The position numbers were made by a program, and so were the translations under genes. This document shows positions 8,223 to 57,930 of a stretch of 64,000 bases of DNA, piece by piece (positions within the stretch are counted from its first letter, which is position 1; each line of letters begins with the position of its first letter). The notes under the pieces are model-generated. The model was given only the letters and a program-made list of their open reading frames with translations. It had not been told where the DNA came from and ran no database searches. Location: assembly GCF_029784155.1 (NCBI RefSeq), contig NC_073693.1:315007536-315071535 (forward strand), given 5' to 3'. This DNA is from Uranotaenia lowii (taxonomy: Eukaryota; Arthropoda; Insecta; Diptera; Culicidae).

Positions 8223-8357
8223 AGCTATATGCTATTTTGGTAAGTTTATACAATCTTTTCATCTGGTATACTTGTTTGAATGATTCTGTTGTTCCTGCAA
8301 TATACCTGCTTAAATTTTTGCTGGGTATGACTAAATCTTACCGTGGGACGCGATTCG

Positions 8358-9083
8358 AACATGTACCACAATCCAATCATACGTCATAATCAGACCATGT
8401 GACATAATGTGACTATGCTACACAATTGAACCATGTAACATTATCTAATCAAGCTACATAATTTGACCACGAGACATAATCTGACCACAAAGAAGTGAAA
8501 TAAATCTGTTTGGTTTGGCTATCGGCTTGCCCCGGTTTCGAGTTATTGTTGGGTGATAATAGTGTATAATTTTAATGAAATGATTTGAAATTTTCGAGTA
8601 ATCTCAGTAATGCAAGTTAATCCATGATTTGGCAAAACTGCGGCGAATCCATGCAATCTAAATCCATGGCCATCATACATACATACATGAGATATTATCT
8701 GACCATGCATCATTTTTGGACCGTGCAACATAATCTGACCATGGGACATAATCAGATCATGCAACATAATCTAACCATGTGACATAATCAAACCATACAA
8801 CATAATATGATCATGTAACAAAATTGAACCATGCAGCTCAATCTGAGAATGTAACATAATCTGATCGCGCAGCCTAATCCAAACATGCGACATAATTTGA
8901 CTATGTGACATAACCTGAGCAGAAATGAGTCATCTTAATATGTAACTTAATTGAACCTTGAAACATAATCTGACCATGCGATATAACCAGTCTATGTAAT
9001 CATATGACATGATCAGATCATGCAACATATTCTGACCATGTTACATAATCTGATAATGTGAAAGAAACGAGCCATGCGACATA
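8358..9083. repeat. Degenerate ~17-bp minisatellite (ACATAATCTGACCATGC)
   Basis: Units close to ACATAATCTGACCATGC repeat with many substitutions over 8358-8489 and again over 8688-9083. A non-repeat piece of about 200 bp (8490-8687) lies between. The units are AC/AT-rich with a recurring CATG core. Open frames through it are not considered coding. Confidence 0.8.
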
Positions 9084-9168
9084 CTCTTATCCCATCTAAG
9101 TCTGTAACGCAAAATAAATAATATTATTTCTTAAGATTATTTAACTGCACAAGTAACATCTAATCTAA

Positions 9169-15913: not shown

Positions 15914-16168
15914 CTCCAGACGAGAAGAAAACCACTCAATTGATTGGTTTGCCGGAATTTTCGTTTCCCGAAACCGGAAGAAAATACGATTGAAGGTGGT
16001 GCGATTGTATTTGTGTGTCGGTACTCGATATATCCTGAGCGCACGCACTTCCGTTAACCTTGGGTGTTTTGTTGTTTGTCTGGAACTGAGTTATTCATTC
16101 CGGATCCGGAAGGGTTCGATACGATTGGGTCGTACGCACTATTGTATGGAGTTGAATGTGTACGTTCA

Positions 16169-16176
16169 TATATAAG
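16169..16176 (+). promoter_or_regulatory. Candidate TATA box
   Basis: TATATAAG in a GC-balanced, repeat-poor stretch, followed by a GCCGCCG string. A start site would be expected near 16199-16203. No arthropod TCAGT initiator is evident there, which lowers confidence. Confidence 0.3.
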
Positions 16177-16330
16177 CCGCCGCTGGGAAACCTCTTCGGA
16201 ATCTGATTTAACCAACCTCTTTGATGTGGTCTTATAATGTTTGCCTCCCAGGCAATCAATCCTTCGTCAAGTGAGAGAATTGAGTGTGTGCGAGATGAAG
16301 TGTGAAGCGGTTCGATTTGAAGTGCGTTGA

Positions 16331-16349
16331 ATGGAATCACAAATGAAAG
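16331..16349 (+). CDS. Candidate first coding exon (partial, six codons)
   Basis: About 130 nt downstream of the expected start site of the TATA box at 16169 is an ATG (16331). It is followed by five more codons (M-E-S-Q-M-K), then AAAG|GTAAAA, a fair splice donor at 16350. No downstream exon could be placed: the intron would run into the LTR elements at 16.7-25.6 kb and beyond. The product is unknown. The region from 15.7 to 16.35 kb is the cleanest promoter-like DNA in the window, but the call rests only on motif spacing. Confidence 0.25.
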
Positions 16350-16681
16350 GTAAAATTATTTGTTTGAAGGTTGAGGTAGAAACAAATTCTGATATAATTT
16401 AAATTTTCAGAATTGAATAAATTCACATTTATCACTTTTTTAAATCATTTTCGAATATTTTGGAAGGGGTTGCTTTTTTGTGACACTTAAAAATTTAAAA
16501 TTCTTACTGAAGTAAGGATCATAAAGCATGATCATTAATTGCAGAATATTTAAATGACATTAGTGGCTATAACTAAATGTTTGTCACAAAACCAGATTTC
16601 ATGTTTAGGGGTAACTTTTATCACTATGGTTTGAACGTATCTCAACAGCTTCAAAACTATTGTTTTGATGCCAATTAACAT

Positions 16682-16710
16682 TGATCTCTAGTGACAGTCG
16701 GAGTTGCACA
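16682..16710 (+). repeat. 5' LTR remnant of the outer element (29 bp)
   Basis: These 29 bp, ending GGAGTTGCACA, are identical to the last 29 bp of the 3' LTR (25602-25630). Upstream of 16682 the match stops abruptly, so the U3 and most of the LTR are missing, by deletion or by insertion of an incomplete cDNA. Confidence 0.75.
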
Positions 16711-16712
16711 TT

Positions 16713-16728
16713 TGGCGACCGACAGGAC
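16713..16728 (+). other. Primer-binding site of the outer element
   Basis: TGGCGACCGACAGGAC lies 2 nt after the LTR end, the usual place for a primer site. Its first eight bases fit the 3' end of tRNA-Arg (CCA preceded by GGTCG), the primer used by mdg1/412-type elements. Confidence 0.65.
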
Positions 16729-16974
16729 ATTTTTGTGTTTGGTAGCAAGTATAAAAGTGAAAAAAGTATATTTTATGTTTTTACTGTGAAAGATTTGGTT
16801 TATAAACACAAAAAGAAACCTTCTTCAGAGATCACCCTCCAAAGAGAAAGAGAATCGTGTGAAATTTAGCTAGGGAGCGGAAATTACCAGTGTTGCTAAA
16901 GTGACATTTTATGAATATTCGTCATATTGGTAGATGGAAAAAAATTGAAAGTTTCTATTTTCACGGATTGAAAA

Positions 16975-17590
16975 AGCGAGTTTTGAGAACAGCTGTTGAA
17001 AAAAGGCGAGTCGTGAGGACAGCCTTACCTTTGCGAGTCGGGAGGACAGCAAAGAAGAACAGCGAGTTGGGAGGACAGCTGTTGAAAAAAGGTGAGTCGT
17101 GAGGACAGCCTCACCTTTGCGAGTCGGGAGGACAGCAGAGAAGAACAGCGAGTTGGGAGGACAGCTGTTGGGAAAAGGCGAGTTGTGAGGACAGCCTTAC
17201 CTTTGCGAGTCGGGAGGACAGCAAAGAAGAACAGCGAGTTGGGAGGACAGCTGTTGAAAAAAAGGTGATTCGTGAGGACAGCCTTACCTTTGCGAGTCGG
17301 GAGGACAGCAGAGAAGAACAGCGAGTTAAAAAGACACCTGTTGGAAAAAAGCGATTAGTGAGGACTTAATTCTGCGAGTTGGGAGGACCGCAATGATGAA
17401 TTGGAGAAAAGCTATGGCTTGTTTAGAAGACAGCAAAATAACTGCGTGTTAGGAGGACCGCATGAGCAAAACCAGCGTGAAGATGAAAACTTAATTAAAA
17501 TAAATGACATGTTTAGAGGACAGACAACTATTTGAGAGTTTGGAGGACCGCAGTAATAAAAAAGCACGTTGAGAAGACCGCTGAATTAAT
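16975..17590 (+). repeat. Hairpin array with covarying stems (outer element)
   Basis: At least twelve copies of a 14-nt loop close to GAGTCGGGAGGACA are each enclosed by short complementary stems that differ between copies. Three types alternate: AAGGC/GCCTT (17003-17007 with 17022-17026), CTTTGC/GCAAAG (17029-17034 with 17049-17054) and AACAGC/GCTGTT (17058-17063 with 17078-17083). The trio repeats every 86-87 bp (CTTTGC stems at 17029, 17115, 17201 and 17288). CTTTGC/GCAGAG copies keep pairing by a wobble. After 17320 the array decays, but GAGTTGGGAGGACC-type loops with TGC/GCA or AGC/GCT stems persist to about 17580. The period is not a multiple of three, which argues against coding. Confidence 0.85.
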
Positions 17591-18675
17591 ATTAGTGATA
17601 ATTCAAGGGTTTAAACTTTTACAAAAAGGGAAAAAACGGTAAAATGATAAATGCAGAAACAACATGATTAAAAGATGAGAAGGTGAATGAATTCAAAAAA
17701 TAATCGGTTATTGAGATATCAGAGAGATACAGTAAGTCAAAGTAAAAGAAAATTACAAACTATGATGAAGACATAAACAAAAAAAAAACACGCTTTCAAG
17801 AGAAAGAAATATGAGCAGTCAAAGACAACAAGCAAAAAAATGCATAATTCAAGATAAGTGGACAGGAAATCAAAGCAAATGGATATTTTCAATTCGTTGT
17901 CTGATCTAGCATCGAGAAACCACTATTTATGAAATGATCATAATCCTTTTTGTAAAAATGGAGCATGTGGTATTCTGAAAAAAAGAGAAAATCTCATGCA
18001 CCTAGAAAAAACGATAAAAGAAGAGCATGGAAAATATTGGACAAATGGGTTCATCTGTTTTTATACTGGACCAAGAAAACGGTCCAAAACGGGAACATCT
18101 CAGAGATAACCCTATAGATAACAGTGTGATGAGATTGATGTTAATATAGGTATAGCTATGCGAATTATTACACTGTTTAATGGATAATTGATTAACTATT
18201 TTAACCAATGGATAATATATATGATTTGAAAGAAATAAAATACCTATCTTGAAGTATAAAAAGATTTGGTAATTTCTATCCGTTACGAAATTTTATTCAT
18301 GAGAGTGAGGCAGAAAAATGCTGAGTAAAACTTTGAAAGATACAAAAAGATGACGAAGAACTAATACCACGGGCAGCCTTATCTCAAGAACAAATTGAAA
18401 GAAAATATTAGAAATCAAGTGCTTACAACATCAACAAACCATAATGGCAAATGATACTCAATTTCATTGAAGTTCATTCTTCCGTAAACAAAAAATAGAA
18501 GGAATAGTCTTTGGAAAAAAGAGCCGTTTGGCTTCCCTGACTTGAGCTTTTCGAGGCTAAACAAAACGACATAGCCTCCCTCGCTGAGGTAAGTGTGGAG
18601 ATTATCTCTTGAAAATGTGAGAGAGCTCAAATGAGCTTGCATATGCCTGTTTACTAACTAACGACAGCGCTCAAG
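17591..18675 (+). other. A-rich noncoding body of the outer LTR element
   Basis: Plus-strand A-rich DNA with no gag or pol frame and no stems of the array type. It runs from the end of the hairpin array to the hAT MITE at 18676. Strand A-richness is common in retroelement RNA and fits plus-strand orientation. Confidence 0.5.
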
Positions 18676-19119
18676 CATGGTTGCCACATGTACAGATTCT
18701 ATCTGAAAATTACAGTATGACGTACTTCTTTTCGGTTCAGATTATATATGTACAGATTTGTACAGGTTTTTCATCACGATAAAGAATAGAATTTAAATAT
18801 GGTCAACCCATATCGAATAATAATTATTATAATATTTGATTATAAAAGGACAGATATATTAAACGGTATGCAGAATTTCTAGCAATAGTATGAAGTATGA
18901 TACAAAATGCTTGAAAAGCAAACATTGATATTTAATTTTATGTGGGTTAAAAACGCATATAATGGTAAAAAATTCAGAATACATAGATGTTATTTGAGTT
19001 GCCTATAGAAAACTTCTATGTTGGTACAGATTGTGGAACAGATTTTGGTCCAAATGGTGCAGATGAAAAACAATTTATTTTTCGATTTGAAGATCTTATT
19101 TTTTAATGTGGAAACACTG
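18676..19119. mobile_element. hAT-type MITE inside the outer LTR element
   Basis: Ends CATGGTTGCCACAT and, inverted, CAGTGTTTCCACAT. Flanks CGCTCAAG (18668-18675) and CCCTCAAG (19120-19127) match at 7 of 8 positions, fitting an 8-bp hAT duplication. TACAGAT-type strings recur inside. No transposase. It inserted after the outer LTR element. Confidence 0.7.
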
Positions 19120-19303
19120 CCCTCAAGCCAGACACGAAAAATTTCTCTCATCGGTGCGTCCATGAATAAGCATGCGTTACCCACCGTGCTTTGCTATTCG
19201 TTCTCCGGTGGAGGACGGAGGAGGAGATGGAGATTAGGAATTCGCTCTCTCCGCCTTCAAAGAGACGCATATTCTTCCAAGTTGGTATTGTGTTATTGTG
19301 TAG

Positions 19304-19519
19304 TGTGTGGTACGCCCCTGACTAGTCGACATAACGTATAAAATCGACAGCTACCGCGTGGTGCTTCACGCACACTAGCAACACTCGGGCTCGAGATATT
19401 TGCAAGCATGTTGCAATGCAAGCTTTCGCGAGTTGGCATTCGGCTGGTTAGGTTCTACTTGAGCATAGTGCTCGATCCCCGTGAAGGATGATTTCCTCGT
19501 AGCGAATCGAGCTTGCACA
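19304..19519 (+). repeat. 5' LTR of the inner element
   Basis: 216 bp, TG...CA boundaries, with a TATAAAA box at 19337-19343 that would drive element transcription. A small GCGTG/CACGC hairpin lies soon after it. Identical to the 3' LTR. Confidence 0.92.
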
Positions 19520-19521
19520 TT

Positions 19522-19539
19522 TGGCGACCTAAACAGGAC
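19522..19539 (+). other. Primer-binding site of the inner element
   Basis: TGGCGACCTAAACAGGAC starts 2 nt after the LTR, the same spacing as in the outer element. The first eight bases again fit tRNA-Arg; the middle differs from the outer site. Confidence 0.7.
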
Positions 19540-19698
19540 ATCATTTTTCAATTTATGTGGAAGAGGAAATCATCCTTGCGCGTGGGACTAATCCACTGGT
19601 GTGTAGAAAGTACCGGAAACACACAGCTCGGGGAGAATTTGAGTAAGTATAAAAATTGTAAGAGCGGCATAGAAAGGAAAGATGGCTGCCACATTTGA

Positions 19699-20118
19699 AA
19701 GCGTGTTGGGAGTCCGCTTGTGGTAAAAAAAGCGCGTTGAGAGTCCGCTTGCCAAAAACAAACAGCGTGCTGGGAGTCCGCTGTGGTAGAAGTTTGAGAA
19801 AACAAGTGCGAAGAGAGTCCGCTTGTCAAACTTAAATAAAAAAGGCGCGTTGAGAGTCCGCCTGCCAAGAAAAAGCGTGCTGGGAGTCCGCCATGAAAAA
19901 GATTGAGTAAGCAAGCGCGCTGAGAGTCCGCTGATCAAACTTTAAGAAAAAAGCGAGCTGAGAGTCGACCTGTCATTGAAACAGCGCTCTGGGAGTCCAC
20001 TGTGGCAAAAGTTTGAGCAACAAGTGTGTTGAGAGTCCGCTTGTCGAAAGTGAAGGAAAAGAGGCGAACTAAGTGTCAGCCTGCAGGTAAAAAAAACAGC
20101 GTGCTGAGAGTCCGTTGT
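19699..20118 (+). repeat. Hairpin array with covarying stems (inner element)
   Basis: About twelve units share an 11-nt loop close to TGTTGGGAGTC or CGTTGAGAGTC. Most are closed by stems that change in step. AAGCG/CGCTT: 19699-19703 with 19715-19719, and 19730-19734 with 19746-19750. ACAGCG/CGCTGT: 19762-19767 with 19779-19784. ACAAGTG/CGCTTGT: 19802-19808 with 19820-19826, and 20020-20026 with 20038-20044. AGGCG/CGCCT: 19843-19847 with 19859-19863. A late copy keeps pairing by a wobble, ACAGCG/CGTTGT (20096-20101 with 20113-20118). A few copies are mismatched. Spacers of 10-25 nt are A-rich and not conserved. Confidence 0.85.
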
Positions 20119-23100
20119 TGCAAAAACTTTGAGAAAATATGGGAAGAATGACAGCTTGCTGTGAAATTCTTTGAAAAAAATTGAGAAAATAGAAGGTTGA
20201 GAGTCTCTTGTAAAACTTTTGCTTGTGCTGAAAACACGTAAGCAAACGGAAAGAGTGAACACAGGGAGAGTTCGCTGGCCATTACGAAAGGTACGAGTAG
20301 ACGGAAACGTCTGTTGGGAATTCACTTGACGAGCCAAAAGAAACATAAGACCAATTGGATGAGAAACGTTAACCCCGTTTGAAGCGAAGAGAAAAAGATA
20401 GCATGTGAGAGCTGCAAGTGCAACGACAAATGAGAATATTTTCATGTGGCGAGAGAATCACAACTATTTACCAAAATACATAAGTTGAAGAACCCATGAT
20501 AGACAATGGGATAAGACGAATAACCGTTTCTTCGAGACTTTGCCAATACCTTCACATAAATCCTTTGATAAATGAGCCCTCTGGGTGTTTAATTCTGGAG
20601 ATCAAAATTATAGAATGAAAACTATATTGAAATATAAACAATCACGTCAGTTATATCTGAGATGAAAGCAAGACATCTAAAATATTGTTTATAATATCGG
20701 ACAGAAAAAAAACACTTCAGAGTTTGAAGGAAGTCAAAACAGTTTCACAAAAAAATGTAAAGCACTGGACAAAAAAATCAAAAGGGCTCTCATAAAAAAA
20801 AAATAATTTTAATTACAAACAAAGTTCTCAAGCTCACAAACCGAATTTGTGATTGAAATATGAAATTTAAGATGATACTTGATTTGATACTTGATAATTT
20901 TTAATTTGAAATTGAAGGTAACAAAAAGGTTTTGGTCCGGAATCTGGAGTTTCGTTTGAATATAAATCAGAATTAAAAAGAAATTTGACTTCTCAGATGA
21001 ATTTTGAATAAAGCTCGAGAGTGATATCGACCTTCAAACGTGGATCGGGAAAATTGTTGAAAAATTTAAAAACTACTTTTTGGTGGATACTAAGAAGTTA
21101 AGCTGATATAGAAGAGACTAAGCTTAAATTACCTGTCAGAAATTCAAAACAGATTTTTTAGTTCAAAATCTTCTTCGAAATCACCTGAGAAGCAAATAAA
21201 AGTTTGAATCATGAATTCTATGTAAAAAAAAACAAAACAATGAGCTTATTCTCTGTTATTCCATGTTTAGGCAGCCTTATACAAATATGGATACCGACTC
21301 TGAGAACTGAGTCAGCGATTTACTTCTAGCTTCACTTAAAACTTAAATAAATCCCTGAAGTTTGAAAACGGTAGACACCATTCTGCCCGCGGTAATGTGG
21401 GAAAAGACCACATTGAATGATAGATATCTCGGATAACGTTAAATCAGTGGAAATACATCAACACAAATCATATTTTTACACGAGTAAATATTCGTCGTTG
21501 GATTTCCATCCGTTTTTAATCTTGGGAAAGTGAGGTAATGATAGCGGGAAGCGATTGGCCTTCCGAACAGCGTTACCACATTAATACCTGTTCATTTCAC
21601 CCAAAAGAATCAATAATTCTGATGAACTACCTATATATAGATTTTTCACCATGTCAGAATCATTTTAATGGTATATCGAGAAATGCAGTGCTAGTTATTA
21701 CAACAAATCCAAAAAAATCTGTAAAAGAAAATTGTACCAAATTTCAAAAATCCGACACCCGTACGTACAAAGTCTGTTCCGAAAACGAGATTAAAAAAAA
21801 TCTGTACATGTGACAACAAATGAACGAAGATATGGGTAAATGGCGGTAAAAGATGTAAACATAACAGTTAACAGACTCGGAATAGTATTGATAAAATAAG
21901 TTGCGGAAGTTTACAGGAATGTGTTGAAGAAAAAAATACCACTAGCCAAGTGGGATTGAATGATCTCATACGAAATGCTGGAAATATATAAAAAAAAAGT
22001 GTTAATAATAGGTAGTATTGAGCTTGTAGACCAGTTAAAAAAAAAACACTTTAAAAATTATATTGGGAAGATAGAAGAAATATTTATATTTGCGGATTTG
22101 AACGGATTTGAGCAGTATGTTATCCTTTGTGATCTTTTTACTTGGGAACCACCCGATTGCAACGCTTGTATAATTAATGCGAAAAAGTTAGGTCTGTTAT
22201 GAATCGTTACCATTAAGTTCATGAAATACTTCAGAATATCATCAAGTGATTTGATTGCTGCCAATCTTGATAATCAGTAGTATGGAGAAGTGCCATCAAA
22301 ATTATAAAGAAAGAAAATTTAAAAAGTGTGTTGAAATTTACGGCGCAGTAGTGATTTGAATTCTTTCCGCGTTCATTATTTTGCATAAAGTTTGCATTCA
22401 ACAAACAAAGTCAATTGAAACAAAAGTATTCCGAATTTAGAAATTTAAGAGTGGCCTTAGGCAATTTAAAGATTTAGAAGTTTGGGAAGATCAACAAAAC
22501 TAAATATGCTTAATACAACATATACGAAAAGTGTTCCTATGATTTTCTATCGGGCTAAGTGCATCTACATTCGTTAGTCAGAACTGTAGAGAATATGGCA
22601 ATGGAAATAATCGAATAAACATTTGAAGAATAAGTTATGAACTGAACGATGAGGTTTCCGTGTGTGATGCGGATACGGCATCAGTCAGTTTTTGGAGTGA
22701 TGTGAAACTGTAAAGATGCCAGTTTAAAAGACGGTCGCGTTTTAAGAACCCTGAAACCGAACGGACACGACAAGAATGATGATGAATGATGAAAAACATT
22801 TATATTTCTAATCAATCAAGATAAAAATAAAAGAAATACATTTTCAAAAAAATAAAAATGGAAAAATTAAAGCCTGTGAAAAGGAAATAAAATGATAAGA
22901 TATTCGAATGGAATATGGGGATTGAACACCCTCACCAGATTGTTAAAACGCCTCTATTCAACAAAATGTAAGGGTTTATGTCTAAATAATAGATATAATA
23001 ATTACTTTTTATCATTGAAACTTTGAATCCCAGTTTTAATCCAAATCTTGAAGAGACAATAGAAAAGCTTAAGAATGATTTTATAAAGCATGGCAATTTT

Positions 23101-23413
23101 GGGCAATGATATTATAATAGAGAAACGTTAATAAATGATTATGCCATGAATAACAAAACCGTGGTAGGTATTGCTTATAACACAACATAGGTGCATTTAG
23201 CCAACACGTTTTGAGTTTTACCAAAAAAGGCTACTTTTAGTTAAAAGGAAAAAGAATTCCTGATAGCTATTGGGAATTTCAACATAACATAGCTTTCTTG
23301 GAATGGCGCATATAGCCCGTCTTGCTCTTACATTTGTATCATGCCGTGGGATGAATAAATTTTCGTCTTTTGGAAAACGGTACAGAAAATCCTACGATGA
23401 ATTCATGTTTATA
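20119..23413 (+). other. A-rich noncoding body of the inner LTR element
   Basis: Plus-strand A-rich DNA without retroviral-type motifs: no zinc knuckle, no DTG protease, no YxDD reverse transcriptase and no integrase frame was seen. The minus-strand frame at 19942-20445 is the complement of the hairpin array and its flank and is not considered coding. Confidence 0.55.
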
Positions 23414-23662
23414 TTAACAAATTACGAACCGCAAAGAAATCTCAGCCGTTAAACACCAAATTTTGGCATCGTTTACCTCAGAAACCACTGAACCAAATTC
23501 TACAAATTCAGTTCATTTGTGTTAACGAAGGTATTGTTTGCATATTTGTAGAAACAAGTATTATTATAAAATTTATAGTTTTTGAGTTATGCTTCTAAGT
23601 TTAGGCACACATGCGGTGAGCAAAAAAACGAAATTTCTCGTATTTGGTTCGCAATGTGTTAA
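23414..23662 (+). mobile_element. TTAA-flanked (piggyBac-type) MITE, copy c
   Basis: Starts TTAACAAATTACGAACCGC and ends TTTGGTTCGCAATGTGTTAA. It aligns along its length with copy b at 13460-13697 but is clearly diverged from it. It sits inside the inner LTR element, whose LTRs are identical, so the MITE probably entered a parent copy and has been carried along since. Confidence 0.7.
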
Positions 23663-23882
23663 GATATGTTACTGATGTTTGCAAGAGGCAGAAGAACGAA
23701 AGAAACGAGACAATGGACACACTCGAATTCGAATAGAGAAAACATAACCCACACTAAAATGTGCGTTGGCATCATGCTCTCAATTGAAGTGTTTTGAATG
23801 TGACACACTCTGTCAGTCGATCGGCGGCCGGAAACTCGGCTTCTCTTTGCAGATGTGTGAGTTGAAATGATATAAGCCCGAG

Positions 23883-24189
23883 CAGGGACGCCAGGTGGTT
23901 TTGTCAAAAATCAGGACATAACGAAGAAAAAATCATGATTTTTCTAAACGCCACTAACTCAGTTAAGATTGTAAAAATTAAGCCGAAAAGCAGGTAATGC
24001 AGACGCTTGAAGTTATAAAACTGATGCCAGCATAATCATGGTCATCATGGTCTGCTATTTGTATGGAAAAACACCATTTAAATATCACATGATACACATG
24101 AACTATCTAATTACAGATTTGTTCGATATACTCGGTGTCTCGAAAATCAGGACAAATCCTGAAGAAAATCAGGATATCTGGCATCTCTG
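23883..24189. mobile_element. hAT-type MITE inside the inner LTR element
   Basis: Left CAGGGACGCCAGGT and right, inverted, CAGAGATGCCAGAT are terminal inverted repeats. Flanks AGCCCGAG (23875-23882) and TTCCCGAG (24190-24197) agree at six of eight positions. Subterminal AAAATCAGGA motifs occur on both sides. 307 bp, noncoding. Confidence 0.65.
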
Positions 24190-24606
24190 TTCCCGAGCCC
24201 CGTGTGGTTTGTTTTATTCACGAACACCAAAAAGAATCGGGATGACGTAATGGTGCACCAACACCTGCGACCTGCGATAATAGATGCGGATAAGAGTCCC
24301 CAATGATTTATCAATGCGATTAGATATGGCATTCTAAAAATTACGAAATTAAAGTAGGAACACTTTATGACACACTTAACCATGAATAAATTTGATTTCG
24401 GGTATTTCCCAATGAATCTCCGATCAATGGTAATGTTATCTCGATTAACCTGATGAAGTATAAATTTAAGAAAAAACTATTGACAAAATGTTTAAAATTA
24501 TATTTTTGTGGCAAGAATAACGAAACAAGACACTGTTGGAAAACTTACGAAACTCACTCATAAAAATAAAGGGGTGATTGAAAGACTCATTCAACTTCAA
24601 TTGTGT

Positions 24607-24616
24607 AGAAGGAGGA
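24607..24616 (+). other. Polypurine tract of the inner element
   Basis: AGAAGGAGGA directly abuts the 3' LTR start, where the plus-strand primer for reverse transcription is expected. Confidence 0.75.
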
Positions 24617-24832
24617 TGTGTGGTACGCCCCTGACTAGTCGACATAACGTATAAAATCGACAGCTACCGCGTGGTGCTTCACGCACACTAGCAACACTCG
24701 GGCTCGAGATATTTGCAAGCATGTTGCAATGCAAGCTTTCGCGAGTTGGCATTCGGCTGGTTAGGTTCTACTTGAGCATAGTGCTCGATCCCCGTGAAGG
24801 ATGATTTCCTCGTAGCGAATCGAGCTTGCACA
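24617..24832 (+). repeat. 3' LTR of the inner element
   Basis: 216 bp, identical by direct reading to the 5' LTR, followed by the TGTAG duplication. Confidence 0.92.
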
Positions 24833-24837
24833 TGTAG

Positions 24838-25456
24838 GTAAATCTAGAATTCATTGATCAATTCGTCGAGGGGAATGTATTGCCTTGTCACGGTGCATGT
24901 ATAAACATGTTCGCTAGGAAATCTCCCAGCAGCAGCGAACGTTTTCCGAGGCTGATGTATAGCAACAACGTCCTGGGCAATCAGGAAAGATAAAAGCGCC
25001 AAAACGAAATGAGCGTGCGGTGCCAAGAGAGCCAATTCCCCCTCTCAGACATGCGACATACGGAACGTGGAAACATTTAGGCGTTTCCGTCTGGCGCAAG
25101 AACTTCATTTTGTGCTTGCGCGTCAGCCTATCTAAAGGCGCGTTGTTTAATGTATGAAGTGATGAAATTCGCTGAAATCCTGTAATTGCGAAAACCAGTT
25201 GTATCGCCTATTCTGCTGTTTGATTGAGCTTGATTCGGGTTGCAAAAAAACCCTTGTGGCATGGTGTATATTGTTGTTTGAGCAAATTACAGTCCAATGA
25301 CTCCGATCCTTATTCTTCATAGATATTCAATGCAAGAATATTTCGTCGCAAGATAGGGAAAACTAAAATTTTTAAATGCGTGTCGTTATGAACTATAATA
25401 GAAAAAAAGAATTTTGAAATCTCTATTTTCATTTTTTTCCCCGAGAGGAAGGGAGA
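24838..25456 (+). other. 3' internal part of the outer LTR element
   Basis: Continuation of the outer element after the inner insertion. More GC-balanced than the rest, but no pol-like frame. It ends in the purine run GAGAGGAAGGGAGA (about 25443-25456), the outer element's polypurine tract. Confidence 0.6.
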
Positions 25457-25630
25457 TGTGTGGGTCAGGGATAGACGAGAGAATACTTCTATGTATTCTC
25501 TCAGGTCAGGCCCGAACATTCGAGCATCGTCTCCAGTAGCGACGCGACATTCGACCAGTAAGCCGCAACGTCGGTTCAGAGGACGAGAATACCTTGGTGG
25601 GTGATCTCTAGTGACAGTCGGAGTTGCACA
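25457..25630 (+). repeat. 3' LTR of the outer element
   Basis: Starts TGTGTGGG right after the polypurine tract and ends GTTGCACA; 174 bp. Its start and end resemble those of the inner LTR (TGTGTGG...TTGCACA), so the two families are probably related. It contains a perfect 10-bp hairpin, GAGAGAATAC (25477-25486) with GTATTCTCTC (25493-25502). Its last 29 bp equal 16682-16710. Confidence 0.75.
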
Positions 25631-30509: not shown

Positions 30510-32158
30510 CGAGCGTAGGATGATTTCCTCAATACAGAGTTGTTAATCATTAGTAAATGAGGACAGCCTTTTTTAATGAAATAAATAAAAGATTGGTTGT
30601 GAATGATCGGTGGAATAAAACCATGAGTTGAAGTCGAATTTTGTTGTCTGACGCCACCATGAAATCCAAGATAGCGGCTTTCGCTTGAGGATATTATGTT
30701 GTAAACGACTTAAAATCGCATGAAAACCCAAAAAATGGGTATTAGGAGAAAAGGCTGAACTAAAAGGAGTTGAATTTCGCTATCTGAAGCCATATTTAAA
30801 TCCTATATGGCGGCTTCCGCTTTAGTTTACAATACTGTTTAATACAGACAATATTGGTATTGGCTGAAACGGCTAAACTATAGAAAGTCATATTTTGCTT
30901 TCTAGCACCATCTTTAAATTCAAGATGGCGGTTTCCACGTAAGATTAAAATTTGTTGATCAATTCAAATCGCATGAAATACCCAGAATATGGGTATTGGG
31001 TGAAAGGACCAAACTAGAAGTAGTCAAATTTCGCTTTTGGACGCCATCTCTAAGTCTATTATGGCGGCTTCCGATGAACTTTTAAATTCTGTAAATGACT
31101 AAAAATCACATTAAGCCCACAAAATGTAGGTATTAAGTGAAAATGCTAAACTAGAAGAAGTTGAATTTCGCTTTTTGACGCCATCTTGAAATCCAAGATA
31201 GTGGCATCTGAATAACTTTAAAATGCTGTAAAAGACTAAGCAGCACATGAAACTCCCACGATATGGGTATTGAGTGAAAGGGCTAAACGAGTAGAAGTCA
31301 TATTTCGCTGTCTGACGCCGCCCAAGATAGTTACTTACACTGATCTTTGAAACCCTGGAAATGGAAAGTCTCATAAAAGTTCAGCGAAGGCCGCTCTCTT
31401 AAAGTTCAAGTCAGCGTTAGATAGCGAAATTCGACTTCTTCTCGTTTAGCTCTTTCACCCAATACCCATTATATGGGGTTTTTCAAAGCATTTTCAAAGT
31501 TAATTGTTAACCGCTATTTTATGTTTCAAGATGGCGTCAGATTGAGAAATCCGACTTCTACCCCTTTCACTTATTAACCCATATTGTGAATGTTTCATGA
31601 GCTTTTCAGTAATTTACAGCTTTGAAACGAAAAGCAGAATCCACCATCTTGGATTAACGATGGCGTCAAGCAACTTTTTTTTCTCCTGCTAGTTGAGCCT
31701 TTTCAATTCATGTTGTAGAGATACTTCTACCCCTTCCGATGATTTGAAGTATTTCAAAGATTTTTATATATTTTTTAATTTAACTCAAAAACAAAACACT
31801 TGACTTATCAACAATGTGTAAAAATGGGGACTCCAGTTCAAATATGTGCAGTCTTGTCTGAGCGTGTATGTTTTGACATCTTCATCGTGAACACCGAACA
31901 CGCAACAAAAAGCTTGCTACAAGCTTTCTAGTTAATTTACTTGAGTTTTAAAATAGCATTAAGAACTCTTTCTAAACAACTTAAACTGGATTTTGTAAAT
32001 GCTTCATAAGCATTTTCAGAACTACCTGAAAAAAATGGTTAAACCAAGAATCTAAGCAATTCTCATGACCATATTGAAACAGTTATGAAACAAGCTGCGT
32101 CTAAAATGCTATAATCAAACCTTCCAATGCTAGTTGGTTTAATCCATGTAAGTTGGGA
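30510..32158. mobile_element. Foldback element with ATGGCG palindromes, copy A
   Basis: A unit of about 130-140 bp, containing a CGCCATCTTG...CAAGATGGCG-type palindrome followed by GGCTTCCG, recurs five or six times in one orientation (30650-31330) and then in the opposite orientation (31388-31680). The right end, AATGCTAGTTGG...AAGTTGGGAAG (to about 32158), matches the right end of copy B at about 48280-48311. The left boundary, near GGATGATTTCCTC, is shorter than in copy B and looks truncated. No coding frame. Confidence 0.65.
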
Positions 32159-34976: not shown

Positions 34977-35607
34977 ATTAACAAAATTGACAAAATTGAC
35001 AACATAGACAAAATTGACAAAATTGACAACATTGACAAAATTGACAAAATTGACAAAATTGACAAATTTAAAAAATTGACAAAATTGACGAAATTGACAA
35101 AATTGAGAAAATTGACAAAATTGACAAAATTGACAAAATTGACAAAATTGACAAAATTGACAAAATTGACAAAATTGACAAAATTGACAAAATTGACAAA
35201 ATTGACAAAATTGACAAAATTGACAAAATTGACAAAATTGACAAAATTGACAAAATTGACAAAATTGACAAAATTGACAAAATTGACAAAATTGACAAAA
35301 TTGACAAAATTGACAAAATTGACAAAATTGACAAAATTGACAAAATTGACAAAATTGACAAAATTGACAAAATTGACAAAATTGACAAAATTGACAAAAT
35401 TGACAAAATTGACAAAATTGACAAAATTGACAAAATTGACAAAATTGACAAAATTGACAAAATTGACAAAATTGACAAAATTGACAAAATTGACAAAATT
35501 GACAAAATTGACAAAATTGACAAAATTGACAAAATTGACAAAATTGACAAAATTGACAAAATTGACAAATTGAAAAAATTGACAAAATTGACAAAATTGA
35601 CAAAAAT
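34977..35607. repeat. 9-bp satellite, block 1 (ATTGACAAA)n
   Basis: About 65-70 tandem copies of ATTGACAAA, almost perfect from 35107 to 35566 and more degenerate at the left edge. Because the unit is a multiple of three, every frame without a stop yields a long tripeptide-repeat ORF on both strands. These are artefacts. Confidence 0.97.
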
Positions 35608-35690
35608 GAAAAAAAATAACACAAAGACAAAAATGACCAAAAAGACAAAAATAACACAAATGAAAAAAAAATGACAAAAATAACACAAAT

Positions 35691-36612
35691 GACAAAAATA
35701 ACAAAAATGACAAAAATGACAAAAATGACAAAAATGACAAAAATGACAAAAATGACAAAAATGACAAAAATGACAAAAATGACAAAAATGACAAAAATGA
35801 CAAAAATGACAAAAATGACAAAAATGACAAAAATGACAAAAATGACAAAAATGACAAAAATGACAAAAATGACAAAAATGACAAAAATGACAAAAATGAC
35901 AAAAATGACAAAAATGACAAAAATGACAAAAATGACAAAAATGACAAAAATGACAAAAATGACAAAAATGACAAAAATGACAAAAATGACAAAAATTACA
36001 AAAATGACAAAAATGACAAAAATGACAAAAATGACAAAAATGACAAAAATGACAAAAATGACAAAAATGACAAAAATGACAAAAATGACAAAAATGACAA
36101 AAATGACAAAAATGACAAAAATGACAAAAATGACAAAAATGACAAAAATGACAACAATGACAAATTTGACAAAAATGACAAAAATGACAAAAATGACAAA
36201 AATGACAAAAATGACAAAAATGACAAAAATGACAAAAATGACAAAAATGACAAAAATGACAAAAATGACAAAAAGATAAAAATGACAATTTCTGTCACAG
36301 AAATGACAAAAATCAAAAAAATGACAAAAATGACAAAAATGACAAAAATGACAAAAATGACAAAAATGACAAAAATGACAAAAATGACAAAAATGACAAA
36401 AATGACAAAAATGACAAAAATGACAAAAATGACATAAATGACAAAAATGACAAAAATTACAAAAATGACAAAAATGACAAAAATGACAAAAATGACAAAA
36501 ATGACAAAAATGACAAAAATGACAAAAATGACAAAAATGACAAAAATGACAAAAATGACAAAAATGACAAAAATGACAAAAATGACAAAAATGACAAAAA
36601 TGACAAAAATAT
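35691..36612. repeat. 9-bp satellite, block 2 (AATGACAAA)n
   Basis: About 100 tandem copies of AATGACAAA, differing from block 1 by a single T-to-A change fixed in nearly every unit. Short interruptions lie at about 36155-36170, 36270-36315 and 36433-36462. A degenerate transition (35608-35690) separates the two blocks. The minus-strand frame of 562 codons spanning both blocks is not a gene. Confidence 0.97.
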
Positions 36613-36960
36613 AAAAAGGACCAAATTTTCAAAAATGACAAAAATTAAAAAAAATTCACTCCAAAAGCTTGAAACCATTCTTTATGTATTTGTTCTAAAC
36701 GTGTTCCAAAATAATATTCATCTCAAAACTTGATTTCTCCTGAATTTTCAGAAGACTGTGTTGTTATCAAGTTTTGCTTTATTTGCTCGGGTTGGTATTT
36801 ATAAATTTTGCAAAAATTAAATGGCCACTTATCGAGGGTCGTTAAAATATCAACTATCTTGCCCGGTTTCCGGAGCTTAGCGCCCATTATCGATTTCCCA
36901 GCAATGCAACGGCCAAGCCATCCGGAAGGTTGGCCAAAGCAGACGGGGATGGGCCAGGAA

Positions 36961-45548: not shown

Positions 45549-48311
45549 CATCCCAAGTAACAATTTTAGCTTTATTATGGTCAGCAAAACATCGTTTGGA
45601 CTATCGCATTAATCTTCATAAAAAGCTAAAGCGCATTCTATAACATCACCTGGACTCTAATAAAGCCAAAATCAGGCTATTTGGCCCTACCCTAGAAACG
45701 TCATCAAGACATATAATTGTTGGTCATCAATATTGGTCACCAAAGCTTTTAAAAAGCTATTATAAAACATGTTAGAAATTTTTGTTTTTTTTTCGGTTCT
45801 GTCAGTTCTCGGAGTTTTTTTTTATTTTTTCCAGCAACCATAATGGTTGATGAATGATGATTGCATTATTCAGATATGATCTGGTAAAATTAAAAGCTAA
45901 AAAAACCAATGTTTTACCCATATATTGAGCTTCTTTTCTACTGCCAGTCAAGATTTTAGGTAAAATGTATATGAAATAGTATCTTAAAATAAATGCGCCT
46001 CGTTAAATCTGATGGTCAATCATGATGGAATTGATGGAAAAAGGCCTGAAAAAATATTTTCCAATGCTTGCATTGTGAATCCATCAACATGGCGTCATTT
46101 TGTGCCCTTCGATTTTGCAACCAACATGGCGTGAGTCAATTCATAGTTTTATTATGGTTTAATGATGACCCCAAAAAAAGCTACGATTTGAAGTTTCTCT
46201 CGCAAGCCAACCAATTACACGCTAAGGTTGAGTTCCTCATCTCTGAGTTGTTAATCATTAGTACAGTAAATGAGGACAGACTTTTTGAATGAAAAGGGAT
46301 TGGTTTTGAATGACCCGTGGAATAAATCATGAGTTGAAGTCAAATTTCGTTGTCTGACGCCATCTTGAAATCCAAGATGGCGGCTTCCGCTGAACTTTAA
46401 AATGGTGTAAATGACTTGAAATCGCATGAAACCCCAACAAAATGGGTATCGGGTGAAAGGGCTAAACGAGTAGAAGTTGAATTTAGCTATCAGACGCCAT
46501 CTTGAAATCCAAGATGGCGGCATCCGCTCAACTTTTAATGCTTAATGCTGACAAAAAGTCGCATTAAACCACCACTATACGGGTATTGGGTGAAAGGGCT
46601 AAACTAGAAGTCGATTTTTTTCTTTCCGACGCCATCTTGAAATCCAAGATGGCAGCTTCCACTGAATTTAAAATATTGTTAATCAATGAAAATCGCTTGA
46701 ACACAACTTTTTTCACGTAATACTACATTAAAACTACTATTTTAAGACACTTTAGATAATTTTAAATCACTTTTATTATTTTTTCATTATGTTTCTAATG
46801 CATTTAGCACTTTTCTTGTTTTGTTTATAGTTTTTGATTTTTTTGCCATTTATGAAATTATATTATTCCTATCATGCTCTTATGTTTAAATTGTATTGGT
46901 CTTATTCTAGCGAAAACTATAAGGTTATGTTGTTTCTGTTTACCGTCTGATTTAGGCACATGTGCCAAATTCGATGTTGCCAAAATCGAATGTTGCCAAA
47001 AACGAATGGGGTCTGCATTGTGGTGGTTTTTGTGGGATTTTCAGTCACTTACAGATTTTCAAAGAAACGCGAAAAGAGATATTTGACTTCTATCATTTAG
47101 CCTTAGCACCCAATACAATATATTTGGGAGTTTCATGCTATTTTCATTCATTTACAGTATTTTTAAGTTCAGCTGAAGCCACCATCTTGGATTTCAAGAT
47201 AGCGACAGAATACAAAAATAAACTTTTTATAGCTTATCCCAATTGACAAACACCCATATTTTGGAGGTTTCATGCGATATTCAATGATTTAGAGCATTTT
47301 TAAAGTTTATAGAAAGCTGCCATCTTGGATTTCAAGATGGCGTAAGATAGCAATATTCGACTTCTACTCGTTAAGCCCTTCCACCCACTACCACCTGGGT
47401 TTCATGTCATTTTAAGTCATTTACTACATTTTAAAGTTTAGCGGAAGCCACCATCTTGGATTTCAAGATGGCGTCAGATAGCGAAATTCAACTTCTACCG
47501 GTTGATTTCTTTCAACTTATTCCCCCTATAATATAGGTTTTATGCGATTTTCAGTCATTTACAGTATTTTCAAGTTGAGTGGTAGCCGCCAACTTGGATT
47601 TAAGATGGCGACGGGCAACGAAATTTGACTTCTACTCGTTTATTACTTTCACCTAATAACCATATTGTGAAGGTTTCACGATATTTTCAGTAATTTACAG
47701 CTTTGAAAATAAAAGCGGAAGCCGCCATCTTGGATAAATGATGGCGTCAAGCAACAATTTTTTTCCTACTATTTGGGCCCTTTCACTCAATACTCATATT
47801 GTAAAGATATTCATACCACTTTCGGTGATTTCAAGTTATCAAAGATGTATTTTTTTTTTTATTTTAACTCAAAACCAACACGCATATCTTACCAAAAATG
47901 TGTAAAAATGGGAGTTCCAATTCAAATATGTGCTATCTAATCTGAGCGTGTTCTGTTTTGACATCTTGATCGAGAACTGTCACTAAGTTTTATGACGGTT
48001 TAATAATCATGCACTGAGTGCTATTATAGAACATGCAAAAGAAAGCTTGAAGCAAACTTCTAGGTTTGTGTTTTATTATAGTTTAAAAAAAGCATTCACA
48101 ACTCTTTCAAAATAACTAAAACAGCATGTTTAATAAAAGTTTTATTAGCGTTTTCAAAACCATCTAAAAACATATGGTCGAAAAAAAATTATAAGCATTC
48201 TGCATGACCATAATAAAACCGCCATAAAACGAGCTGCACAAAAAAATGCCATAATCAAACCATAATAAAACTTCCTAATGCTAGTTGGCATAATCTGTGT
48301 TACTTGGGATG
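45549..48311. mobile_element. Foldback element with ATGGCG palindromes, copy B
   Basis: Ends are inverted repeats with the 14-bp core CATCCCAAGTAACA (45549-45562; inverse at 48298-48311). Forward-oriented units with GACGCCATCTTGAAATCC and AAGATGGCGGCTTCCG lie at 46350-46670, inverted units at 47170-47770. Unit spacing is about 135 bp. It also has ACATGGCGT strings near 46088 and 46124. It shares the GAGTTGTTAATCATTAGTA block and the right end with copy A at 30.5-32.2 kb. No transposase frame was found. Confidence 0.8.
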
Positions 48312-56889: not shown

Positions 56890-57930
56890 CTAAGCACGGT
56901 TTTGAAACAATTTTGCTCATACCAAATGACGTTCAAACAGACGATTTCTGCAGTTCAACTTAAAACTCTGTGTACCGTGCGATCCAGTTTTCATAATTTT
57001 CCTGAAAATGGGAAGCTTTTTTCAGAGAAATGCAAAAATATCGAAAACATATGGTGTACTTTCCCCAACGTTTCGTTGAGCCAGTTAGCGAAAATGGTAA
57101 AAGAAAGCATTGGAGCGGTCCGGAATGAGATCCGGAAGAATTGATAGGAAATCAGATTTGTGGACCAAAAAAATCTGGGTCCGGTGGACAAAACTTTGGA
57201 CCAAAAAGTCATGCGTGCTAACGCCAGTAAGTAGACTGCCTCAGTTCGGGATGTAGACAAAAATGTAGGATCCCTCTCCGCACCATTTATAGTGCCAAGG
57301 TAAGACTGGGTCTAAAGGCTTATAAGAAGCAGAAGAAGCTAAAGCGGAGTCAAAATCAGGCTACTTCTGTCAAACCAAGAGCTCCTTAATTATATGATCA
57401 ACTGCTGTGTGGAGAACCGGTGTGCGTTAGCATCATCGATGCTCGCTTCCGGGTGTTTAATGTACAGGATGGAAAAATTATTGACGAAACAGTGACATAC
57501 ATTTTTTAACCGAAAAATTTAGTTAAAAGGCAATGGTTTAGAAAACCATATGTGAGTGTGGCATGTTTTCCGAGCCAACTACTGACACAATGAATGCAGC
57601 TGTTTGCGAAGGAGAGTGCCTGAACTGTTTCCTGCTTTCCACGATCCGCAAGCTTGATCACCCAGTACAGTTTTTGGTTGGATATAGCATCAGTTGACTA
57701 CTCGTAGGACACGATAGCTTAGTAAATCCAACATTGGACAACATTTCGAAGGAGATGAATCAGCCAAATTGTCCTCAAGCGAGACCGGTTGAAACATTTT
57801 GGGCCCATATCAAATCGAAAAAAGTGGTCATAATCATCCCAAAGATGAAAGGGTTTTTCCATCTTCATCACGATGCCTTTCAATTCAATTCCATTTGTGG
57901 TTCGTTGTGGCCGAGAATCAGTATTTAACC
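56890..57930 (+). pseudogene. Degraded Tc1/mariner transposase (ITmD37E-like)
   Basis: Conserved transposase landmarks occur in order on the plus strand but in shifting frames with stops. There is a helix-turn-helix-like FPNVSLSQLAKMVKESIG (about 57060-57115), then AYKKQKKLKRSQNQ (about 57320). IIDETVTYIF (about 57478) is a likely first catalytic Asp region, and FWLDIASVDYS (57672 onward) gives the second Asp at 57681. Last comes MNQPNCPQARPVETFW, with the catalytic Glu at about 57791. Asp to Glu is 110 nt, about 36-37 codons after one frameshift, fitting the DD37E group better than DD34E. A GGGTGTCCCAATATGTC string at about 56873 may be the left end. Non-functional. Confidence 0.65.

Follow-up and report, generated by a model that had tools for sequence, protein, structure and literature searches.

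The window, by which we mean the whole 64-kb stretch of the Uranotaenia lowii genome analysed here, contains two LTR retrotransposons on the forward strand, one nested in the other, and each of them carries an array of small hairpin units downstream of its primer site. The outer one (element 1) begins with the last 29 bp of a 5' LTR at 16682-16710, an exact match over 29 nt to 25602-25630, and continues with a primer binding site at 16713-16731 (TGGCGACCG-ACAGGACAT), which we take to be of the tRNA-Arg type and which was found at the equivalent position in 32 other loci. Array 1 follows at 16972-17587, and the element closes with the polypurine tract GAGAGGAAGGGAGA (25443-25456) and a 174-bp 3' LTR (25457-25630, TGTGTGG...TTGCACA). 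A sister copy of element 1, represented by the loci L274 and L342, is 99.9% identical over 2.4 kb. The same polypurine letters precede the 3' LTR in L342, and the 3' LTR in the window and the 5' LTR of L274 share 98.9% identity. By comparison with L274, which has the whole 174-bp LTR, the window copy is truncated at its 5' end to the 29 bp given above. The sister is about 3.6 kb long, with 174-bp LTRs that are 98.9% identical to each other, and a target site duplication GTAAT; none of its sense frames reaches 110 codons.

The inner element (element 2, 19304-24832) is a protein-less LTR element flanked by the target site duplication TGTAG at 19299-19303 and 24833-24837. Its two 216-bp LTRs (19304-19519, TG...CA, and 24617-24832) are 100% identical and enclose a primer binding site at 19522-19540 (TGGCGACCTAAACAGGACA), presumably also of the tRNA-Arg type, array 2 at 19695-20121 and the polypurine tract AGAAGGAGGA at 24607-24616. 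The sister copy of element 1 lacks element 2 and preserves the empty site: positions 1-212 of L342 match the window up to 19303 and positions 208-1005 match from 24833 onward. The insertion of element 2 and its 5-bp duplication are supported because these flanks meet in L342 with the five bases present once. Sense frames in the two window elements do not exceed 110 codons, and an antisense frame of 171 codons running across array 2 (19945-20457) had no Pfam match.

Other repeats are found elsewhere in the window. About 186 copies of the 9-bp tandem repeat ACAAAAATG occupy 34981-36653, two clusters of a partly inverted 136-138-bp repeat with GCCATCTTGGATT-like motifs lie at 30517-31319 and 46225-47977, and irregular 18-bp tandem repeats resembling ACCATGNNACATAATCTG occur at 8304-9102. 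An open frame at 57698-57925 presumably corresponds to the end of a Tc1/mariner transposase.

Structure of the hairpin arrays

Array 1 consists of 20 hairpin units, about 12 of them well preserved and the rest degenerate; 19 were recovered by a consensus scan and one (17507) was added by eye. The units are built of a 5-6-bp stem and a loop of the type GAGTYGKGAGGACA, and the three unit types follow one another in the order A-B-C. The initial annotation had described, at 16975-17590, hairpins with a repeated 14-nt loop, the stems AAGGC/GCCTT, CTTTGC/GCAAAG and AACAGC/GCTGTT with a wobble variant CTTTGC/GCAGAG, and a higher-order unit of 86-87 bp some 260 nt beyond the primer site. All of this was confirmed: the 14-nt loop is exact in 10 of the 20 units, all three stems and the wobble variant are present, the A-B-C period measures 86, 86 and 87 bp (TRF period 86), and the first unit lies about 260 nt downstream of the primer site at 16713.

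Folded as sense RNA, the segment 16975-17590 reached -175.3 kcal/mol, compared with -149.4 +/- 3.5 kcal/mol for shuffled sequences (z -7.5, 20 shuffles), and the minus strand folded more weakly (z -2.9, 20 shuffles). The seven units beyond 17350 did not stand out when folded singly against shuffles (z above -1 in five, about -1.1 in two). In the A-type unit at 17086-17115, the pairing AGGTGAG/CTCACCT, noticed by eye, competes with the standard stem, from which the computed folds depart at this place. The units of array 1 are mostly tandem copies of the three types, so array 1 alone holds few independent changes and permutation figures derived from it alone overstate their number; the strong evidence for stem compensation comes from the other genomic copies rather than from array 1 by itself.

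Array 2, which lies 2.7 kb downstream of array 1 in another LTR element, has 12 units spaced 30-41 nt apart, with the loop YGYTGRGAGTC between GCG and CGC. The loops of the two arrays are related, as seen from array 2, GCG-Y-GYTGRGAGTC-CGC, and the degenerate copies of array 1, GCG-A-GTTGGGAGGAC-CGC. Array 2 folded as a whole was no more stable than its shuffles (z +1.05), and its covariation taken alone was modest (equalled in 6 of 500 shuffles for paired cells and in 35 of 500 for double-changed cells). Two core patterns matched the window 11 and 8 times, all on the sense strand of the elements and never on the opposite strand (0 and 0). A covariance model was built from 31 units (19 of the 20 in array 1 and all 12 in array 2); in the 64-kb window it detected nothing below E 0.01 beyond the two arrays, whose units match by construction. 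An Rfam scan of 16000-25500 gave no match at E<=1.

Stem covariation and strand of action

Stem pairing was examined in several alignments. Alignment A1 holds 16 of the 20 array-1 units, A3 holds 19 of these 20 together with all 12 array-2 units, A4 holds 150 of 185 model hits from 16 of 30 loci, and A5 holds 150 of 172 model hits from 19 of 30 loci, with 123 distinct rows. In A5, 89.5% of the cells were paired, compared with 79.4% when partners were shuffled (0/500), and double-sided changes numbered 87 against 31.4 (0/500). Another shuffle test of stem covariation also gave 0/500, and sliding the partner lowered pairing to 21-50%. At one stem pair, 103 of the 123 distinct rows had C-G and 12 had U-A. 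A4 and A5 had been fitted to the model and statistics on them lean towards it, while the within-array, single-array and slide tests described below are independent of it; the within-array permutation test was added because A5 had been fitted in this manner.

In the within-array test, loops were placed by loop letters only, with the arms unused, and right arms were permuted inside each array only. The loci were chosen to thin near-copies (15 of 30 for the array-2 type and 12 of 30 for the array-1 type). At stem positions 2-6, 439 of 565 cells were paired in array-2-type arrays (77.7% compared with 67.9% after permutation, 0/3000) and 709 of 910 in array-1-type arrays (77.9% compared with 60.3%, 0/3000). 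At positions 7-9 the array-2 type did not exceed permutation (28.8 vs 29.6%), and the array-1 type did so slightly (33.3 vs 28.4%). At positions 1-3 the array-2 type was again above permutation (79.6 vs 73.8%, 1/3000), and the array-1 type, in which position 1 is a G-A mismatch in most cases, showed no excess (56.6 vs 55.8%). Taken singly, eight of the 15 array-2-type arrays reached p<0.05; the 15 include some near-identical pairs. The slide and single-array permutation tests drew on 18 and 19 loci. Partners slid by +1 or +2 in array-1-type arrays slightly exceeded permutation as well (40.9 vs 34.3% and 45.1 vs 41.6%, 0/1000 each), which points to residual relatedness among these units. Covariation across genomic copies had been named beforehand in the initial annotation as the test of its reading of a conserved loop with compensatory stems. 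This reading came through, with 0/3000 for both array types at positions 2-6, and selection on RNA structure in the arrays is well supported.

Wobble pairs were informative about the strand to a different extent in different parts of the hairpin. At positions 2-6 of array-2-type arrays, A-C was depleted more strongly (26 observed, 45.9 expected under permutation) than G-U (41 and 52.3). Array-1-type arrays showed no excess of G-U over A-C at these positions (G-U 66 vs 85.1; A-C 69 vs 84.5), and neither did the two arrays of the window in any consistent manner (4:2 and 3:5). Among 242 distinct 25-mers, the inner GUY/RAC mini-stem of array-1-type loops was U-G in 118, C-G in 55, U-A in 49 and C-A in only 6; Fisher's test on these 228 gave p 0.0017. 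A pair that tolerates U-G and not C-A fits sense RNA. Since the stems lack a consistent excess of G-U over A-C, the assignment of the strand of action rests mainly on this inner pair and on the orientation of the elements.

Distribution in the genome and leader position

Both arrays were used to search the assembly from which the window was taken (1.08 Gb in 2009 contigs, including three of 437, 370 and 216 Mb). Array 1 gave at least 109 matches (40 of 321 candidates scored) and array 2 at least 60 (40 of 310 candidates scored), 58 of the latter at 67-84% identity. Some array-1 matches span about 2.7-3.9 kb and are close to satellite-like (C1:157095044-157098923, about 3.9 kb; C3:24787286-24790294; C2:80563611-80566345), and at positions 167-1030 of L284 extra hairpin matches lie upstream of the locus's own LTR, as if two carriers stood side by side. 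Among 60 loci, 33 had a strict primer-site match 129-298 nt upstream of the first loop and fell into six leader groups. Eight of the 27 loci without such a match contained the bare TGGCGACC, and the remaining 19 had neither, many of them being views into long arrays. Several carriers have the primer site TGGCGACCGTGACAGGAC, which we take to be a tRNA-Arg match.

A pattern of 25 bases spanning the LTR end and the primer site, GCACATTTGGCGACCGTGACAGGAC, was picked independently of the array and occurred at 22 genomic places, while the reversed control occurred at none. All 22 places carry the array; they belong largely to one broad array-1-related lineage, on which the model was partly built. 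Twelve of them fall at array loci already known (10 scored by the model, 2 by array DNA match only), and ten were newly examined over 1 kb each. Model hits were present at every one of these ten, two at L345 (E 7e-5 and 0.01) and at least six at each of the others. The leader position after the primer site, part of the original reading, is thus supported in several element families, including all 22 places with this pattern.

Complete carriers and their coding content

Six complete carriers were delineated, each with a primer site after the 5' LTR, a polypurine tract before the 3' LTR and a 5-bp target site duplication. Besides element 2 (TGTAG; LTR pair 100% identical) and the sister of element 1 (GTAAT; 98.9%), four extended loci proved complete: L309 (about 5.4 kb, ACATG), L315 (4.6 kb, CCTAC), L321 (6.7 kb, CCAGT) and L325 (4.7 kb, GGTGT), with LTR pairs 99.5-100% identical, so that the identity of the LTRs ranges over 98.9-100% in the whole set. 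We read these complete copies as having moved recently. Five other extended carrier loci showed partial LTR matches (three) or none (two). Between the LTRs of the four extended carriers there was no sense frame above 112 codons, the first 3 kb having been scanned for frames of at least 120 codons only, and neither the open-frame scan nor Pfam revealed a recognisable gene in any of the six. The description of the host element as coding-less is supported for the complete carriers as well as for the window elements.

The extent of sequence shared between carriers was assessed by comparing element 2 with 14 array-2-type loci. As these loci had been found through the array, their similarity in the array is given, and it is the dissimilarity after the array that is informative. 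The 1494 bases following the array at the element 2 locus did not align in 12 of the 14 and aligned over 73 and 58 bases in the other two. Of the LTR and flank, 0-312 of 1330 bases aligned. The 163-nt leader preceding the array aligned in full in four loci; the aligned part was 14-42 bases long in seven others and 0-1 bases long in the remaining three. In the four comparisons with a fully aligned leader the array is therefore not the only shared part.

Lineage and search for an autonomous helper

The initial annotation had suggested an mdg1-like affiliation, which was not supported: target site duplications are 5 bp in all six complete carriers, whereas the one mdg1 family for which PMC3286476 displays them has 4 bp in each of five copies. 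Mag-type elements are described there as having mostly 5-bp duplications. The same source names an Arg primer class, to which the Mag-type cqgypsy_25 belongs, so that a tRNA-Arg primer site is not specific to mdg1 (PMC3286476). Mag-lineage Ty3 elements like cqgypsy_25 are a candidate kind of helper for the array carriers.

An autonomous element with the same array was not found among the carrier loci, by Pfam on 18 open frames or in the 3 kb after ten primer sites, and none of the complete carriers contains pol. Seventeen of the 18 open frames in or near carriers had no Pfam match, and one gave a sub-threshold RVT_1 match together with a weaker PlyB_C match. The RVT_1 match (L276:2989-3330, E 5e-5, 23.5 bits, under the cut-off of 29.6) begins about 1.15 kb past the last family-matching base (1838), beyond the sequence repeated from the 5' flank of the element, and for this reason was read as the remnant of a neighbouring element; the frame had no match among solved structures. 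In the 3 kb following the ten new GCACATTTGGCGACCGTGACAGGAC primer sites, no CCHC motif of the form searched was present. Sense frames of at least 100 codons in these stretches numbered one in L346, overlapping leader and array, six in L348 and two in L349, and six frames of L348 and L349 had no Pfam match.

In public viral contigs, two core patterns occurred in 11 and 10 stretches with one match each, and the LTR-end pattern occurred once. Searches of the same contigs with paired-core patterns gave at least 120 rows, L154 having six matches among the matches listed. A scan of both strands of the window and the loci together (273 records, 2.39 Mb) found at least four cores of one pattern within 400 nt in the window only. 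Ten single matches of the LTR-end pattern in prokaryote genomes look like chance and were set aside.

Discussion

We consider it about an even chance (probability near 0.5) that the arrays are cis-acting RNA elements whose loops ensure packaging by docking a protein that is provided in trans, with the Gag nucleocapsid of a helper as the likeliest candidate. According to this proposal, the sense transcript of a protein-less LTR retrotransposon would fold, some 130-300 nt past the primer site, into small hairpins, about 5 to 20 or more in a row. Each would have a variable stem of 5-6 bp topped by a bulged base or a small mismatch, and a fixed purine-rich loop (GUYGKGAGGAC or GYUGRGAGUC). These loops would dock the nucleocapsid of an autonomous helper, and many weak docking sites could jointly ensure that an RNA without its own Gag is packaged. 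Gag is the leading candidate reader because of the leader position, because a protein-less RNA needs the Gag of another element and because the zinc knuckles of Gag bind G residues exposed in loops like GGAG (PMC7599994). According to the same source, the GGAG loop of HIV-1 could be replaced without a significant effect on packaging (PMC7599994), so that the GGAG-like loop argues only weakly for this role.

The main rival to Gag is a host RNA-binding protein, which would dock on the hairpins to act in export, stability or the control of translation, or to help the RNA evade silencing by small RNAs. Zinc knuckles of the Lin28 type also read GGAG-like RNA, protein-less transcripts need export and stability too, and the same structural data, namely covariation and the bias of the inner pair, would fit such a protein. 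Retroviral packaging signals also lie directly behind the primer site, which slightly favours packaging without being decisive, and we regard the host protein as an unlikely reader of the loops. A role at the RNA level other than docking for packaging or export, such as 3'-end processing or translation control in the leader, is the least probable of the alternatives: 3'-end processing sites in the mdg1 leader are named in the title of a 1991 paper cited in PMC11952523, but the complete carriers have no recognisable protein to regulate and their lineage, with 5-bp duplications, is unlike mdg1.

It is improbable that the repeats act as double-stranded DNA, for example as protein sites of an insulator or enhancer, like those bound by Su(Hw) in the leader of gypsy. 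A DNA-binding protein would fix the letters of the stems, whereas the observed letters vary and complementarity is kept; stems of 5-6 bp are also too short for cruciforms. Speaking for it, array-1-type stems lack an excess of G-U over A-C, and the tandem repeat in the gypsy 5' UTR is an insulator (PMC3286476). Still less probable is neutral amplification of a palindromic unit by replication slippage, spread passively with the elements and devoid of function. Arrays do expand, as illustrated by the matches over about 3.9 kb on C1, and the copies in array 1 are tandem duplicates. Slippage leaves unexplained, however, the near-invariant loops, the covariation of stems across diverged arrays, including the stem pair that alternates between C-G and U-A, and the alignment of the array where the downstream region does not align, with the reservation that the loci were found by their arrays.

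Reading the arrays as docking sites for Gag, we tentatively extend the proposal to a modular Gag-capture tag, at odds somewhat short of even: diverse protein-less families would share little but the hairpin, a single class of helper would read it, the array would confer mobility, and the number of hairpins would set the competition between parasite and helper. TRIM and LARD elements are likewise non-autonomous, having LTRs, a primer site and a polypurine tract and no proteins; we know of no such hairpin array in them. Retroviral packaging signals consist of few, dissimilar hairpins, whereas the array carriers have many copies of one hairpin as a putative Gag site. The Su(Hw) repeat of gypsy, unlike the arrays, is a DNA-protein site without covarying stems. 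It resembles them as a multi-copy leader repeat in the 5' UTR of an insect LTR element (PMC3286476). The hairpins SL2 and SL3 of HIV-1, with the loops GGUG and GGAG, share with the array units the leader position after the primer site, the small size and the exposed loop G (PMC7599994).

LTR elements of mosquitoes that lack coding sequence and contain tandem repeats have been described before (PMC3286476). In Culex quinquefasciatus, the cqUNK group comprises 38 protein-less LTR families with tandem repeats; 11 of the 38 have a tRNA-Arg primer site, target site duplications are mostly 5 bp, and a master copy is not known (PMC3286476). By their description they resemble the array carriers in the absence of coding sequence, LTRs more than 98% identical, a clear primer site, a polypurine tract, a target site duplication and tandem repeats between the LTRs (PMC3286476). 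They differ in that their repeats are given by period and composition, and the main text of that paper has no mention of hairpin, packag* or virus-like (PMC3286476). It suggests regulation, recombination or trans-mobilisation and leaves two options for mobilisation, the elements being either inactive or moved in trans by the machinery of a related element (PMC3286476). The Mag-lineage Ty3 element cqgypsy_25 is likewise similar by description, with a tRNA-Arg primer site, a 198-bp LTR, a 5-bp target site duplication and tandem repeats in the 5' UTR; it differs from the array carriers in having two ORFs and being listed as putatively active (PMC3286476). Our searches of the open-licence literature yielded no description of such a hairpin unit or of an array with covarying stems.

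The families described here have one main internal feature in common, an RNA hairpin of the leader whose stems covary. If the loops capture Gag, the arrays would represent a packaging-type signal present in many copies, in contrast to retroviruses, whose signals comprise few hairpins. With its 30 positions, the search model may help to detect similar parasites, together with their helpers, in other genomes, and the covarying leader hairpin offers a testable handle on the trans-mobilisation of protein-less LTR elements.
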